Source: Vittaforma corneae ATCC 50505 | Taxonomy: Eukaryota; Microsporidia; Nosematidae | Length of the DNA stretch: 64,000 nucleotides | Assembly: GCF_000231115.1 (NCBI RefSeq) | Contig: NW_006889835.1 | Coordinates: forward strand, 35,503 to 99,502 | Direction of reading: 5' to 3' | In this document: positions 8,421-57,547 of the stretch, piece by piece | Layout: the number at the start of each line of letters is the position of its first letter | Position numbering within the stretch: position 1 is the first letter of the stretch | Notes under the pieces: model-generated | Databases searched by the model: none | Seen by the model: the letters and a program-made list of their open reading frames with translations, nothing else | Told to the model about the DNA's origin: nothing | Made by a program: the position numbers and the translations under genes

Positions 8421-9305
8421 TCACTGTGGTATTCGTAGAGCATCCCCATCAAACACAACACGATCTTCAAATATCTTTCTCAATTCTTTCTTACCTAGAG
8501 TCCTTTTTCCATCTCCTTCCTCTAAAATGTTATTGCCTCTTAAGTCCAGAATTTCCAATGAACCGGACAATTTTTTTATCTCAATTGGAAGTGTCTCAAG
8601 TTTATTGCCATTAAGATATAGCTCTTGTAGATTCAGATTTCCCACCTCAACTGGTAGTGTCTCGAGTTGGTTATTATTGAGATTCAGTTCTCGTAGATTC
8701 TTTAGCTTTCCCATCTCGGGTGGTGGTGTCTTAAGCTTGTTGCCTTTGAGATACAGATACAATAGATTCTTCAGCCTTCCTATCCCAGGTGGTAGTCTCT
8801 CGAGTTTGTTATCATTGAGAATCAATACTTGTAGATTCTTCAGCTTTCCCATCTCAGATGGCAGTGTCTTGAGTTTGTTAAAGTTGAGATTCAGCTCTAG
8901 TAGATTCTCCAACTCTCCTATTACTTCTAGAAATGTTTCAAATTTGTTGCAATTAAGATCCAGTTTTTGTAGACTTTTCAACTCTCTTATCTCGGCTGGT
9001 AATGATCTTAGCTTATTACCACCAAGATTTAGTTCCTTTAACTTCACTAGTCTCTTAATATTGCTGTCAATAGATGTAATACCTTTGGCAGGTATAGATA
9101 TTTCAGTTTCATTCTTAGAATGCCCTTCAAAGCTATAATGCAAAGAATGTACTGCTCGCCTTTCAGTTCTAAAATCTCTAAGTGGGTTGGAACTTTGAAT
9201 GGCTCGGGGGTTTACATCACTGTTTGAGCTCTGAAATGTAGCTTCCATAAGCACAATAAAGCTGCAAATTACTTTGTGTGCCTTTTTTGTTTGTACAATA
9301 TTCAT
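8421..9305 (-). CDS. Secreted leucine-rich-repeat protein (type A, copy 1)
   Basis: The product is 294 aa. The basic/hydrophobic N-terminus (residues 1-25) resembles a signal peptide; a short polar segment follows, then about 7-8 regular 23-residue LRRs (consensus NLxxLxLxxNKLxxLPxEIGxLK) from about residue 80 to 255, and a conserved C-terminal cap with LRGNNILEEGDG. The start is supported by AAAAATTTTT (9319-9328) and a C-rich box just upstream on the coding strand. A close paralogue lies at 11527-12552, and the similarity continues into both flanks, so the pair arose by segmental duplication. Regular LRRs of this kind bind proteins; the target is unknown. Confidence 0.85.
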   Translation of the reverse strand: MNIVQTKKAHKVICSFIVLMEATFQSSNSDVNPRAIQSSNPLRDFRTERRAVHSLHYSFEGHSKNETEISIPAKGITSIDSNIKRLVKLKELNLGGNKLRSLPAEIRELKSLQKLDLNCNKFETFLEVIGELENLLELNLNFNKLKTLPSEMGKLKNLQVLILNDNKLERLPPGIGRLKNLLYLYLKGNKLKTPPPEMGKLKNLRELNLNNNQLETLPVEVGNLNLQELYLNGNKLETLPIEIKKLSGSLEILDLRGNNILEEGDGKRTLGKKELRKIFEDRVVFDGDALRIPQ

Positions 9306-11526: not shown

Positions 11527-12552
11527 TCACTGTGGCTCTCGAAGGACATCCCCATCAAATTTGACACGGTCTCCAAACATCTCTCTCAATTTTTTCTTAT
11601 CCAGAGTCCATTCTCCATCACCAACCTCTAAAATGTTATTGCCTCTTAAATCCAATAATTGCAATGAATCCGATAGCTCTCTTATAGTGTCTGGTAGTGT
11701 CTCGAGTTCATTATTCCTAAGACCCAGCGCATTTAGATTCTTTAGCTTTCCTATCTCAGCTGGTAATAACTTTAGTTTGTTATTACCGAGAAGCAATACT
11801 TTTAGATTCTTCAGCTTTTCTATCTCAGACGGTAATGACTCTAGCTTATTACTACCAAGAAGTAGTATTTGCAGATTCTTCAGCTTTTCTATCTCAGATG
11901 GTAGTGTCTCAAGATTGTTACGATTGAGATGCAATATCTTTAGATTCTCCAGCCCCTTTATCTCAGCTGGTAATGATTCAAATTCGTTATAACTGAGATC
12001 CAAGTGCTGCAGATTTTTCAACTTTTCTATATCTGCTGGTAATAACTTTAGTTTGTTACCACGGAGGTATAGTTCCTGCAGATTCTCCATCCCTCTTATT
12101 CCAGCTGGTAATAACTTTAGTTTATTATCACTCAAATCTAGTTCGTGTAGGCTCTTCAGATTTCCTATTTCATATGGTAGTGTCTCAAGATTGTTACCAT
12201 TGAGATGCAATATCTTTAGATTTACCAGATCTCCTATCTCAGATGGCAGCGTCTTGAGCTTGTTATTCTTGAGATTCAGCTTTTCTAGCTTCACTAGTCT
12301 CTTAATATTGCTGTCAATAGATGTAATGCCTTGGAAAGGTATGGCTATTTCAGTTTCATTCTCAGGGTACTTTTCAAAACTGTAGTGCAAGAAATGTACT
12401 CCTTGTTCTTCAGTCCCAGGTCCTTCAAGTGGATTAGGCTTTTGAACGCTCCCAGGATTTGTGTCATTGCCAGAGCTCTGGAGCATAGCTCCAATGAATA
12501 CAATCAGATTACATATTGTTTTGTATGTCTTTCTAATTCTTGCCATATTCAT
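11527..12552 (-). CDS. Secreted leucine-rich-repeat protein (type A, copy 2)
   Basis: The product is 341 aa, paralogue of 8421-9305. It has the same basic/hydrophobic N-terminus, the same polar segment before the repeats, and the same LRGNNILE C-terminal cap. It has about 10 LRRs against 7-8 in copy 1, so repeat units have been gained or lost since duplication. Leading residues of the repeats vary while the L/N/LP scaffold is kept, as expected for a binding surface under change. Upstream, an AAATTTT block and ACCCTA precede the ATG as in copy 1. Likely exported or surface protein; ligand unknown. Confidence 0.85.
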   Translation of the reverse strand: MNMARIRKTYKTICNLIVFIGAMLQSSGNDTNPGSVQKPNPLEGPGTEEQGVHFLHYSFEKYPENETEIAIPFQGITSIDSNIKRLVKLEKLNLKNNKLKTLPSEIGDLVNLKILHLNGNNLETLPYEIGNLKSLHELDLSDNKLKLLPAGIRGMENLQELYLRGNKLKLLPADIEKLKNLQHLDLSYNEFESLPAEIKGLENLKILHLNRNNLETLPSEIEKLKNLQILLLGSNKLESLPSEIEKLKNLKVLLLGNNKLKLLPAEIGKLKNLNALGLRNNELETLPDTIRELSDSLQLLDLRGNNILEVGDGEWTLDKKKLREMFGDRVKFDGDVLREPQ

Positions 12553-29351: not shown

Positions 29352-31897
29352 TTACATGACCCTGTTCAGTTTCAAAAGCTTGTCTTTGTCTTCAACAGTC
29401 TTGCAGATTATTGGAATCGACGTCCCACACCTTATTGCCTTGTTTAATTCACAGGAGACATCCACCAAAATATAGCAGCTCTTATGCACAACCAACAAGC
29501 AATCTCTACAGCAGTATGCCTGATTTACGATTCCATATAGCACTTCGTTGCAGTGCTCACACAGTGTTCCTTTTGCAACTGTCGTCTCATAAAATAGGTG
29601 GCTCTTAAACTCATAAACCTTTTCGCAGTCATCAATACAACTATCAACTATTGTTGACTTCTTGGCCCTTTCTATTTCTATCTTTAGCTCCTCTATTTTC
29701 TTCAACGACCCCTTCATCTGTAGCTCAGCTTCCTCTTTACTCTTTCCTTCAAGAACTACCAGTAGATCTCTGAGCCCTTTTCGAATCTTTTCTTCTTTTT
29801 CCAGGTCTGTCTCCAGTGCCTTTAAGCTTCTTCTTGATCCTGAGCCTGATGAACATCCAACTGGCTCTTTCAGGAAAAACATCTGCAAAGACAGCGACCT
29901 TCGCTTTTCGGACAGGTGGTGCAGCTCGTTGTTCTTCAATTCTCGCACAAAGACCGTATTAATCAGATACTCTTTGCTGTCCACCTTCATTGTCCCATTC
30001 TCTATTGAAATTTCCACTTCTTTGTTTGATAAGGCATTTACAGTCTTTACAACAAAGTTATTGAACGATCTTGAGGCTTCTTTCAAAGATTTTTTGAGAA
30101 CTTTAATCTCTTCTTCCAACTTTCTTCTTAAAACTAGCTCATTCTCGATCTTCTGTTCGTATTCTCTAATTTCACTCTTTTGCATTCTCAGCTGTTTTTT
30201 CAAATCCTCCAAACTTTTATTTTCGTTCTCCTTCTGCGAGCTGGCGATAATCTCATTTGATAGATTCTGGTTCTGTTTATAAAGCCAATATGCTGTCTCC
30301 TTTATTTCATCAAGCCTGTCTGTGAATTTAAATCTCTCTATTGATTTTTTAATATCTTTCAGATCTTCTGCTATCCCAGCAATATTAATCCCTTCCGATC
30401 TATCAGAGGAAGCCACCCCTAGTTTCTCCACAATATCCGTCCTTATTTGTTGCAAATGCTCCTTGGCCATTTTAATCTCTGTTTGTATTTGCTCAAGCAC
30501 TGCTTTCTTTACAGATATTTGATCAAGAGTACCTTGTAGACATTGGTTGAGCGACGACAGCTGGGAAGATAATTCGTATTTGTTGCTCTGAAGTTCATTT
30601 ACCATGTTCGTTAGATCGCTAAGCTCATTTATTTTGCACTGTATTGTTTTGGTGATTTCACTTAGCTTTGCTTTCTCACTTGGATGGCCCTCGATTTCCA
30701 TCACGGCTCCAGACACAGTTGTGCCATCGTCATCGCAACTTTTGCACACACTGTCATTTGATACCACCCGATCTATTTGAGCTACACTGGATCCCGAACT
30801 TTTGTTGCTGATAACATTGTACGACTCTACAATAGAACTTAAGATATTAGAGACATGGTCAGGATCGTGTGTAAATCCTATAAAATTGAGAAACCCACTT
30901 TTAGCTGCACTTGTGTCCGGACTAAAGTCAGTATCAACAAAGTTACTGATGTCATCATCATTTGAAACATGGGGCTTGAATGGCGGATCTAGCTTTCTTA
31001 GATTGTCCCAGTCTATTTCCTTGAAAAAGCTATGGGTTTTAATCTCCTCAAACCCATATCTTATCTCCTTTCTGCATATTAAATTACTAATCAGGTCTTT
31101 AAATTCATCAGAAATCCCTTCTTCAAACTGAAAATCTATGCTTTGGATCTTTGAATATGTTTCCTTGAGCGAGTTTGAGTAAAATGGTGTTATTCCATAA
31201 AACATCTCATATAAAATCACCCCAATAGTCCAATAGTCTACTCAGATCCATACACAACAGTCTCGCCTGTTGAGCTCAGCACATCTGGGGAGATATAGTC
31301 GGGTGTTCCAACAGTGCTACTTGAGATTACCTTTCCGTTTTCCATCTTAACACAGCTGCCAAAATCTGCTAGCTTCACATGCCCTTCTCTGTCGAGCAAA
31401 ATATTGTCTGGCTTTAAGTCTCTGTGTATCCATCCAGCCTTGTGCATTTCGTTGATTGCTGTGAATACCTCGGCTGCGTAGAACTTAATTTCCTCTTCTT
31501 TTAATATGTCTTTCCTGCTCAAGTATCCCAGCAGATCACCTCCGTGCACAAACTCCATGATGTAGAATAGGTGTGTTTCATCTTGGAGACACATATAGCT
31601 CTTCACTAGCCAGTCCAGGCCGTGGGTGGTCATTATCTCCTTCTCGTTCATGAAAAATGTCGCATTTTTGTTCTTCATAACTAGCTGCTTTGCTACTTTC
31701 TTCATGGCATATATCTTGGACTCTTTTTCTACCACATAGACCTCGCCATATCCACCCTTTGCCAGTTTTTTTAGAATTTTGAAATCGGAAGGTTTGGTCT
31801 TTCCCTCGTGAAGCTTGGTAGAGATGGCAGTTCTAAGCTCTCTATCAGCCGTTTCTGAAAAATCAATGAGCAAATTCAGATCTATTTCATGGCTCAT
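29352..31897 (-). CDS. ROCK/MRCK-like AGC protein kinase with coiled coil and C1 domain; one frame break
   Basis: The first frame (31897-31238) encodes kinase subdomains: LAKGGYGEVYVV, IYAMKKV, HRDLKPDN, LADFGSC and VGTPDYISPDVL. A TAG stops it at 31238, exactly where DYWTIGVILYEM should follow; that sequence continues in the next frame from about 31244 to 29352. One missing G at about 31240-31245 explains the break. The second frame holds the rest of the kinase lobe, a coiled coil of some 350 residues and a C1 zinc domain (H-x12-C-x2-C ... C-x2-C-x4-H-x2-C-x7-C) near the end. Intact length would be about 848 aa. The order matches Rho/Cdc42 effector kinases acting on the cortical cytoskeleton. 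CTACCC abuts the ATG. Confidence 0.8.
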
Positions 31898-32322
31898 GGG
31901 TAGAGTTATTTTCTCAAAAAAGATGAAAATAACAAACAGTAAAAACACACTAATAAATAAATATCATTCTTCTTCATTTTTATTATCTAGTGTAAAAGGA
32001 TAATACAAAGGTTAAATTGCAGGGTATCAGACTTGCCGGATCACAAAATTGGACGCTGTGGCTGTCGCGCTAAAGGATCAATGCCGAGCTGCATAATTAT
32101 GTATCTTGAGACAAAAAAGCTGATGCTTGCTTTCCATATTACTTAACGATTTCATAAATGAGGAGATGCTGTACTCTTGTTTCCAGAAGCAACTTCCAGT
32201 ATTATAATGCATTTTCTTATTGATAAAACTGAGCTGTCGTGTATCGAAGCTATCTAGCGCATATTTTCCAGTTGATTTTGGTAGCTTGCAGTGCGTTAAA
32301 AAATTATCTGCTGAAGCTCCCA
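31898..32322. other. Divergent promoter region kinase / F-box gene
   Basis: About 425 bases. Open frames here lack ATG starts and motifs. Start boxes lie at both ends (CTACCC and CTCCCA). No RNA gene was seen. Confidence 0.5.
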
Positions 32323-53788: not shown

Positions 53789-54892
53789 CTATCTTCCTGG
53801 AGGGGACTCTGGTCTAAGACTGAATGTGTCTGAAAAGTTGTCGGGATGATCTTCGATCTTTTTCGAATAGAAGTGGTTATAGACATTTTGTGCATTCTCA
53901 AGTCTCTTCGTTAGAACCCTGTTCGTCTCATTCAACTCTTCCACCCGCTGTGTTTTTTCCTTTACTTCTTCTTTTAGTTTCTTATACTTGGTGTCCAACT
54001 GGCTCATCTTCTTTGTCATGTCTTCTAGCTTCAGTCCTAACTCCTCGTTCCTATCTGCCTCCTTTTGAACGGCTGAAAGATTCTCGCTCTTAAACTGCTT
54101 CAAATCAGAATTCTCTTGTCTCAATTTCTTTATTATTTCATTTGCTGTATTCATTTCCCTGCTAAGTTCTTCTAGTTCGTTTTCCTTGTTCTTCAGCTGG
54201 TCCTTGAATGATACGGAATTCTCTCTTTGGTATCTTTCCATTTCGTATCTTAACTGGGCATTTTCATTGTCTAATGTATATATTCTATTGGACAGCTTCG
54301 CCATTTCCTCTTCCTTTGACGATGCCCTCTCCTGCACAATAGAAAAGTCCTTTTGTATCAAATCTAGCCTCCTTCTTAGCTCAGTATTGTCTTGCTCCAG
54401 AAACCTTATCTTTTCCTTTAGATTTTGATCCCCATTCATGCATCTGTCCCTTAGAATAGAATTCTCCTTTATTAGTTTGATGTTATCTCCCTCCATTCTA
54501 CCTATCAAATCTCCCAGATATCTTCTGTACTGTGTTTCTTCTGGCTTTGCAAACTTCAGCTCCAACTTGCAAATGTTTCTGAACTCAAGGTTTTCAATAA
54601 ACCTTAGAACCCCTTCGTTGAAATAGGCAGTGTACTTTGACGTGGATACTCCATGGAAGAGATTGACCAGTATTTGAATGAATCTGTCGTAGTCCACAAG
54701 GATGTCCTGGTCTCTTTTCAAAATATAGAAATCAGACGATGTGAGCGTGTAAGTCCATAGGGAAAAGACATTTGAAGTGTCTATGAGCCTTATTTCCACT
54801 CCTAATTCAGTTTTAATCATATCCACCTTTACAGGTGTTAGTCCGCTGGGTGTACTCAGAGTAATTTTATTGTTAAACAGGGACTCATGCAT
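53789..54892 (-). CDS. SAS-6-like head domain plus long coiled coil
   Basis: The product is 367 aa. Residues 1-130 read like the SAS-6 head: IRLIDTSNVFSLWTYTL, SSDFYILKRDQDILVDYDRF (family: EEDFxxLKxxQxLLVDFxxFP), then FIENLEFRNICKLELKFAKP (family: ETNPFKHLTHLSLKLLPG) and YRRYLGDLI. From ~140 to 345 there is an uninterrupted heptad coiled coil, followed by a short Ser/Pro tail. Head plus coil is the XRCC4-superfamily plan (SAS-6, CCDC61, XRCC4). SAS-6 oligomerises through the head to form the nine-fold centriole cartwheel. Microsporidia have spindle plaques and no centrioles, so the role here would have to differ. CCTCCC lies upstream of the ATG. Confidence 0.65.
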   Translation of the reverse strand: MHESLFNNKITLSTPSGLTPVKVDMIKTELGVEIRLIDTSNVFSLWTYTLTSSDFYILKRDQDILVDYDRFIQILVNLFHGVSTSKYTAYFNEGVLRFIENLEFRNICKLELKFAKPEETQYRRYLGDLIGRMEGDNIKLIKENSILRDRCMNGDQNLKEKIRFLEQDNTELRRRLDLIQKDFSIVQERASSKEEEMAKLSNRIYTLDNENAQLRYEMERYQRENSVSFKDQLKNKENELEELSREMNTANEIIKKLRQENSDLKQFKSENLSAVQKEADRNEELGLKLEDMTKKMSQLDTKYKKLKEEVKEKTQRVEELNETNRVLTKRLENAQNVYNHFYSKKIEDHPDNFSDTFSLRPESPPGR

Positions 54893-55702: not shown

Positions 55703-57547
55703 ATGGCCCCTATGAATATCAAAATATCCGAAGAACGCTACTTGACAGATGATGAGAGCACAAGCTTCATAGAGAGTGAAAGTGAAACTATTGACAAACA
55801 AGATGAATACATTGAAAAATATGATTTTAGACACAAGCTATTTGATGCTCTATGCTCTTTTAGAATTATTCTGCCAGTCTTGGGCTTAATACTAATTATG
55901 CTTTCATACTTTCTCTGGAATGTTCCAGTCGAAGGAACCAAAGACACCTACAAAGAGATTCACTTTGGGAGTGTCTTCTTTGCCTGTGGTTGCTCTCTTA
56001 TTGTCTCAATTACTCTTGGTACGGTCTTCGAAAGCATCAGTATGAACTATCTCAAGAAAAGCAGGGGAGATGCGTCATACTGTTATTATTTTAATGAGTT
56101 ATCCTTTCATATCTCTGGCCTTCTCGTCATGGCTACTATCCAGGCCTTTCTAATGAGAAAGTACGAGGATTTTTATCTTGTTGACCTCCTTGGCATTAAG
56201 CTATATCTTCTTTATTCTCTTAGATTGATGATGTTTGCATCTATCATTCTAGGACTGCTAAAGGCTGCGGTAAAATATGTTTCAATGCGATTTAACTATA
56301 ACATGTACATAAATAGTATCAGGAAGTGTATTCTCTTTGATTTCTTTGTGTCTTTAATATCTACAGTTAAGGAGGACGAGGACAGTGAAAGAATTGCAAG
56401 GATCTCTATTGAGAAAGAGCCTGAGAGCATTCTGAAGGACTTTTTGGGAACAACGTCAACGCCGCTAAATACTTTTATTCTTCAGAAAAGATTCAGAGTC
56501 GAGGATGCCAGTCAGCTGAGCTTTGGAGAAAAGAGACTGCTGATCAAGGAGTTCCTGAATCTTGAAGATAGAAACAAAATGTACTCTGGAAGTCTTCCTG
56601 TTGTTTTGGGTAAGATCAAGGACAAGGCAGAGTCTAGAGCAAACAAACTGGTAAGGAAGCTTAGAAGACAGGACAAAGTCAAGAAGGCGGGTGATATCTC
56701 CAAATTCTTTTCTGATCAAGGAGTGTTTAAATTTTTGCTTTCTCAATTGAAGATCAAGCCCGAGGAGCCGATTGAAAAAGATAATATTGCGCATGTCATA
56801 GAGAAGACGTACAAGGACAAGTACGTTATTAAAAAGAATCTGGAGCAAATCAACTCAGCTATCCAGAGAGTATCTTTTGTTACAAAACTGGTAATCTACA
56901 TTGCCACGGCTGTGTTTATGTTTATCTCTGCATCTATACAAATAGACTACTTGTCTGCAATACTCTCTGGAATATTTGGCACCCAATTCATCTCAAAGAT
57001 ACTCTCCGATGGTGTTTTACAGTCTATTATTTTTCTCTTTGTAATACACCCGTTTGATATTGGGGACAGAGTTTTTATCAGGCTGGGCGATACAGTAGAA
57101 AATCTTGTTGTTGCAGAGCTGAACATTTTCTCAACGACGTTCTACAAATTTGACGGCACATCGTTCTTTGTTCCGAACAGTGTAATGATAGGTACACATA
57201 TCAGTAATATTAGAAGATCTAAGAATATTATGGAATCCCATTCAATTCAAATAGACAGCAATACAAAACCAAAGAAGCTTGTAAAGCTGAGAGAAATGCT
57301 AGTGGAGTTTTGTAGACACAACACACCGTTCTACACCGACTACATTCTTGTAAACTACGAGTCTATTGAGAATTCAAATAAACTGTATATCAAAATTCTG
57401 ATGCAATACAAGGGAAATTTCCAGAATTACGAATACTATCTGAAGAGAAGAAGCGAGTTTGTGTGTGAATTGGGTAGATGCTTGAAGCACTTGAAGATCG
57501 GCTATTCGCTGCCAACACAGAAGGTGAGGATAGTCCAAGAGGAGTAG
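55703..57547 (+). CDS. MscS-family mechanosensitive ion channel (Msy-like)
   Basis: The product is 614 aa. A charged N-terminus (1-45) is followed by membrane segments at about 53-70, 88-110, 130-150 and 170-190, a charged cytosolic linker (~240-385), further membrane helices at about 395-445, and the MscS beta domain. The latter has HPFDIGDRVFI, LNIFSTTFYKFDGTSFFVPNSVM and ISNIRRS. This arrangement matches eukaryotic Msy1/Msy2 channels of the ER or plasma membrane, which release ions in hypo-osmotic shock. AAAATTTTCG lies before the first ATG (55703); GGCCCCT abuts a second ATG at 55712, which may be the real start. Confidence 0.9.
   Translation: MAPMNIKISEERYLTDDESTSFIESESETIDKQDEYIEKYDFRHKLFDALCSFRIILPVLGLILIMLSYFLWNVPVEGTKDTYKEIHFGSVFFACGCSLIVSITLGTVFESISMNYLKKSRGDASYCYYFNELSFHISGLLVMATIQAFLMRKYEDFYLVDLLGIKLYLLYSLRLMMFASIILGLLKAAVKYVSMRFNYNMYINSIRKCILFDFFVSLISTVKEDEDSERIARISIEKEPESILKDFLGTTSTPLNTFILQKRFRVEDASQLSFGEKRLLIKEFLNLEDRNKMYSGSLPVVLGKIKDKAESRANKLVRKLRRQDKVKKAGDISKFFSDQGVFKFLLSQLKIKPEEPIEKDNIAHVIEKTYKDKYVIKKNLEQINSAIQRVSFVTKLVIYIATAVFMFISASIQIDYLSAILSGIFGTQFISKILSDGVLQSIIFLFVIHPFDIGDRVFIRLGDTVENLVVAELNIFSTTFYKFDGTSFFVPNSVMIGTHISNIRRSKNIMESHSIQIDSNTKPKKLVKLREMLVEFCRHNTPFYTDYILVNYESIENSNKLYIKILMQYKGNFQNYEYYLKRRSEFVCELGRCLKHLKIGYSLPTQKVRIVQEE

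Follow-up and report, generated by a model that had tools for sequence, protein, structure and literature searches.

SAS-6 is usually lost together with centrioles, as in most fungi, and to our knowledge microsporidia have no centrioles. The term 'aciliate' has been used of them (PMC9010356). SAS-6 in a centriole-less microsporidian is already known, since a 2013 paper lists the protein in Encephalitozoon cuniculi 'as previously described' (PMC3697468), the title of a 2019 paper announces that of Nosema bombycis, and several database homologues are named SAS-6 or 'spindle assembly abnormal protein 6'. At the locus studied here, a preliminary description had pointed to a SAS-6-like cartwheel protein in an acentriolar genome of microsporidian type. 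Given these records, the Vittaforma corneae gene adds one orthologue to the known microsporidian SAS-6.

In solved SAS-6 structures, the beta6-beta7 hairpin bears at its tip a Phe that inserts into a pocket which the neighbouring head makes with its helix-turn-helix and its hairpin base; in Leishmania SAS-6 this pocket is lined by F212 (PMC3939493). Toxoplasma SAS6L, which has a related head and likewise serves a non-centriolar use, is described as sitting above the conoid and as having no coiled-coil tail. In animals, the G-box of CPAP (SAS-4) is a receptor for a proline motif of consensus PRxxPxP. F978, Y996 and F1015 are the residues against which the prolines of STIL pack, and Y994, Q1019 and E1021 touch STIL as well (PMC3776556). 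Mitosis in Encephalitozoon is reported to be closed, with yeast-like 'spindle pole bodies' (PMC2078597).

The SAS-6 gene and the head-head interface

The window, that is the whole stretch of 64,000 nucleotides analysed, was described as coming from a microsporidian-type genome, and V. corneae is indeed a microsporidian; a protein encoded on contig C15 of the genome has the same sequence as VICG_01547 of strain ATCC 50505. The gene and the features of its head are as follows.

53789..54892, minus strand: SAS-6 gene, ATG start, 367 aa, a single uninterrupted ORF
54551..54892, minus strand: N-terminal head, XRCC4/SAS-6 barrel, residues 1-114
54644..54739, minus strand: helix-turn-helix of the model, residues 52-83, with F71 expected to line the pocket for the partner's Phe
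54581..54583, minus strand: F104, head-head interface Phe by alignment (zebrafish F131, Leishmania F257)

As judged from profiles and the predicted fold, this gene encodes a true SAS-6. The intact ORF holds, in order, all three head motifs that had been claimed, IRLIDT being the first. Pfam PF16531 (SAS-6_N) matches residues 20-114 at 2.6e-16 and 60.4 bits, against a curated cut-off of 25 bits. The same profile recognises 66 of the 67 sequences in the SAS-6 alignment and finds a single match in the whole V. corneae genome (2.9 Mb, 35 contigs). When the single sequence is searched against solved structures, SAS-6 entries come out on top, albeit weakly (best E 0.0057); with the 67-sequence profile, zebrafish SAS-6 (2y3v) is matched at 2.3e-13. 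The single-chain AlphaFold2 model has seven strands together with a helix-turn-helix (52-61, 68-83), and beyond the head a lone helix covers 119-338. The XRCC4-type beta barrel with its helix-turn-helix is present in the predicted head.

Another branch of the XRCC4 superfamily (XRCC4, XLF or CCDC61), or SAS6L, is a most improbable identity for the protein. In the fold comparison the head lies closer to SAS-6 chains, which clearly outscore the others, than to XRCC4 or CCDC61. The rows of these two stand below the SAS-6 rows, with a ceiling of 10.5 for XRCC4 and 10.7 for a MYH7 entry that is probably an XRCC4 fusion; as a candidate identity of the head, SAS6L too ranks under SAS-6. Conoid-fibre chains are also found among the fold matches. 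Among the Pfam matches listed (25 of 45), SAS-6_N is the sole head family. A search of the V. corneae genome with the XRCC4 profile returned no match, which argues in the same direction, although without a positive control it is no proof of absence. The SAS6L class, defined by a SAS-6-type head lacking the coiled-coil tail, does not fit the 220-residue helix of the model. Matches to myosin, tropomyosin and KASH_CCD arise from the stalk as generic coiled coil and were set aside.

Two database searches retrieved 66 homologues, so the orthologues that the preliminary description had proposed to look for in other microsporidia do exist. Nineteen of the 66 rows name a species, and the 14 genera concerned all belong to Microsporidia (NCBI taxonomy). 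The V. corneae protein shares family, length and layout with the SAS-6 of E. cuniculi, N. bombycis and others (P0037, P0052), from which it shows no essential difference, and it is about 42% identical to the E. cuniculi protein. With canonical SAS-6 (zebrafish, Chlamydomonas, Leishmania, C. elegans) it has in common the head fold, the interface Phe, the pocket Phe and the coiled coil. However, it is only 14-25% identical to them in structural alignments, has 367 residues where canonical SAS-6 has 'generally about 600' (PMC3697468), and belongs to an organism without centrioles.

The residues of the head-head contact are nearly invariant. F104 is aligned by the profile with the interface Phe of 2y3v and with the residue mutated to Asp in 2y3w, and by the single sequence with the corresponding Phe of 4ckp. 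All of the 67 sequences but one have Phe at this position; P0066, the most divergent of the set (24% identity), has Leu. N106 is invariant (67/67), and even homologues of only about 30% identity retain both it and the interface Phe. F71, which falls on Leishmania F212 by a hand count on the single-sequence alignment checked on F257, is Phe in 66 of 67 sequences, with a gap in the remaining one. Over the 67 sequences, the mean majority-residue fraction is 0.67 for the head core (31-114) against 0.52 for the stalk (119-326). This conservation indicates that selection still acts on the oligomer-making surface of SAS-6, while being no proof of rings. It also makes the label of a 'relic' scaffold, given to the protein in the preliminary description, unfit.

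Elsewhere in the window, a protein-kinase domain on the minus strand (29352-31948) is apparently split over two ORFs in different frames, and a long coil and then a cysteine region of C1-like type come after it, as seen by sequence inspection; the arrangement resembles a ROCK-type kinase in which a frameshift or an assembly error has occurred. Strand asymmetry is strong over the first 8000 positions, where the GC skew is -0.68 in the first 4 kb and -0.42 in the 4 kb that follow. This part also has tandem repeats rich in pyrimidines, which hints that it is repeat-rich or subtelomeric. Two leucine-rich-repeat proteins, encoded at 8421-9305 and 11527-12552 on the minus strand, are related to each other and contain 69-bp tandem repeats. 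A 614-aa membrane protein (55703-57547, plus strand) resembles MscS-type channels by inspection.

Coil, tail and a probable G-box partner

Three features follow the head.

53879..54538, minus strand: continuous coiled-coil stalk, residues 119-338, a single helix in the model, with no proline
53867..53914, minus strand: conserved motif closing the coil, residues 327-342 (LENAQNVYNHFYSKK type), delimited by majority fraction
53792..53821, minus strand: C-terminal tail, residues 358-367, rich in proline (RPESPP type) and put forward as a ligand of the G-box

The coiled coil is uninterrupted, as had been stated: the predicted helix spans 220 residues with no proline and five glycines, and would measure about 33 nm if fully helical. 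Model confidence drops to 51-71 over its last 50 residues. The closing motif reaches a mean majority-residue fraction of 0.82, compared with 0.46-0.49 for residues 151-300, and may be a docking site for some other partner.

The tail is also better conserved than the middle of the coil (0.72 versus 0.46-0.49). Of 64 SAS-6 sequences, 61 have PxxP or PxxxP within their final 16 residues, as against 0.6% of shuffles; the patterns were picked after viewing the alignment, the rows are related, so that these are not 61 independent events, and three truncated rows (P0014, P0060, P0063) are excluded. Like the CR2 of STIL/Ana2 (PRxxPxP), the tail thus has conserved prolines, spaced as PxxP or PxxxP. However, its first proline is commonly followed by Glu or Asp rather than Arg, and the exact PRxxPxP motif is found in none of the 64 tails.

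A candidate for the corresponding receptor is encoded elsewhere in the genome.

L002:1216-1623 (contig C15), plus strand: probable SAS-4/CPAP G-box protein, 135 aa, by profile and fold; uncharacterized at NCBI

This protein matches the G-box/TCP10_C profile at E 1.3e-5 and 25.2 bits, under the cut-off of 36, and its predicted fold consists of two helices followed by a single extended antiparallel sheet, which is the G-box fold. Together with its relatives, these matches make it a probable SAS-4/CPAP G-box protein. There are 71 database rows including its own, and the 17 species named are all microsporidian. PF07202 is given for 24 of the 71, the V. corneae record included, and three relatives (P0120, P0124, P0126) are named Centromere protein J (CENPJ) or T-complex in UniRef. 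The alignment holds 55 of these rows plus the query, 16 having been omitted (one identical to the query, the others longer, shorter or fragments), and 40 of its 56 members match the profile at E 0.001 or better. CPAP has tubulin-binding parts, of which none is visible in the 135-aa protein, only two helices and a sheet. Nematocida parisii and N. minor carry the G-box protein (P0131, P0132); no Nematocida SAS-6 is present among the homologues from the two database searches.

The microsporidian G-box has invariant aromatic and Glu residues like those used by CPAP for STIL. Y86, F99, Q103, E105 and E114 are found in 56 of 56 sequences, Y88 is Tyr in 54 and F108 is Phe in 55. Their correspondence with CPAP hangs on the register, both sets of residues being nearly invariant. 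In one register, taken from the profile alignment with zebrafish CPAP (CPAP numbers counted by hand), F99, Q103 and E105 equal F1015, Q1019 and E1021. In the other, shifted by about one hairpin and taken from the fly Sas-4 alignment and the range of the structural alignment, the equivalents are Y86, Y88, F108 and E114, with Leu in place of F978 and mostly Leu or Ile at Q1019.

Profiles for STIL_N, POLO_box, Plk4_PB1 and Sfi1 gave no match in the V. corneae genome, searches that had no positive control and hence are no proof of absence. The Polo result means little, because the E. cuniculi Polo kinase has degenerate Polo boxes that were missed by a Pfam search (PMC2078597). The suggestion that most partners of SAS-6 had been lost was therefore at most half right: the STIL and Polo-box profiles came back empty, but a probable SAS-4/CPAP G-box is kept. 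The genome also holds three tubulin-family genes, read as alpha, beta and gamma. A 615-aa coiled-coil protein (L007:316-2163, plus strand) has a CM1 (Cnn_1N) match under the cut-off and is, from its sequence, a candidate anchor of the gamma-tubulin complex at the spindle plaque. For proteins of the gamma-tubulin complex itself the search gave one match, a weak one to GCP_C, surrounded by two overlapping ORFs (L006:1324-3283, minus strand); either strong divergence of the gene or a break in its reading frame may account for this.

SAS-6 after the loss of centrioles

The identity of the protein, in an organism without centrioles, implies a non-centriolar use, as the preliminary description had concluded. 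That microsporidia widely conserve the protein, and keep its assembly interface intact, likewise points to a second, centriole-independent job. We favour, with a probability of about 0.58, the proposal that microsporidia retained SAS-6 after centriole loss and most likely use it, together with a minimal SAS-4, as a small scaffold of the spindle plaque, the spindle organiser of the nuclear envelope. Two SAS-6 chains would pair through the coil, as in other SAS-6 proteins, and the heads would join via F104 into rings or curved oligomers, with which the minimal SAS-4, a short coiled coil plus G-box, would cooperate. The analysis establishes that the protein is a SAS-6 with the predicted fold and a conserved head-head interface, and that the same genome encodes a protein best read as a G-box; we infer the formation of oligomers, the location at the plaque and the cooperation of the two proteins. 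Such a scaffold is the most economical role for SAS-6.

A more specific and rather unlikely version holds that SAS-6 rings at the plaque bind the G-box of the mini-SAS-4 directly through the proline-rich tail, giving a two-protein core of centriole assembly without centrioles and without STIL. The link that requires STIL in animals would then be part of SAS-6 itself, the tail being its own G-box ligand. That SAS-6 may carry this ligand is a hypothesis, the simplest one in view of the conservation and of what is known about G-box chemistry.

Alternatively, SAS-6 may have been relocated to another structure, where it might serve, for instance, as a ring or an anchor close to the polar tube or the anchoring disc. 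SAS6L above the Toxoplasma conoid offers a precedent, and the conoid-fibre chains among the fold matches agree with it. Yet SAS6L, as described, is tail-less, unlike the V. corneae protein with its 220-residue helix, and for this reason an apical or polar-tube role is less favoured. The probable G-box protein in the same genome points instead to the SAS-6/SAS-4 pathway, leaving relocation improbable. The searches, directed at centriolar and spindle-pole proteins, brought up no link between SAS-6 and the polar tube. It is equally doubtful that the protein is a plain coiled-coil dimer, for example a nuclear or pore-associated linker, with no assembly of heads. We know of no ring or cartwheel in microsporidia, the stalk gives weak matches to generic coiled-coil families, and the interface Phe is lost in P0066, all of which would suit a plain dimer. 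However, an unneeded head would be expected to drift, whereas the head core is better conserved than the stalk and the interface Phe and N106 persist in distant homologues.

For the spindle-plaque scaffold, the presence of a probable G-box partner turns the matter into one of pathway, namely whether the spindle plaque of microsporidia is a cartwheel that has been remodelled. The answer would bear on the relation of centrosomes to yeast-type spindle pole bodies. Both proteins are small, which makes the question amenable in vitro, and the conservation of the interface, along with a widely conserved probable mini-SAS-4, makes a non-centriolar use of SAS-6 directly testable.
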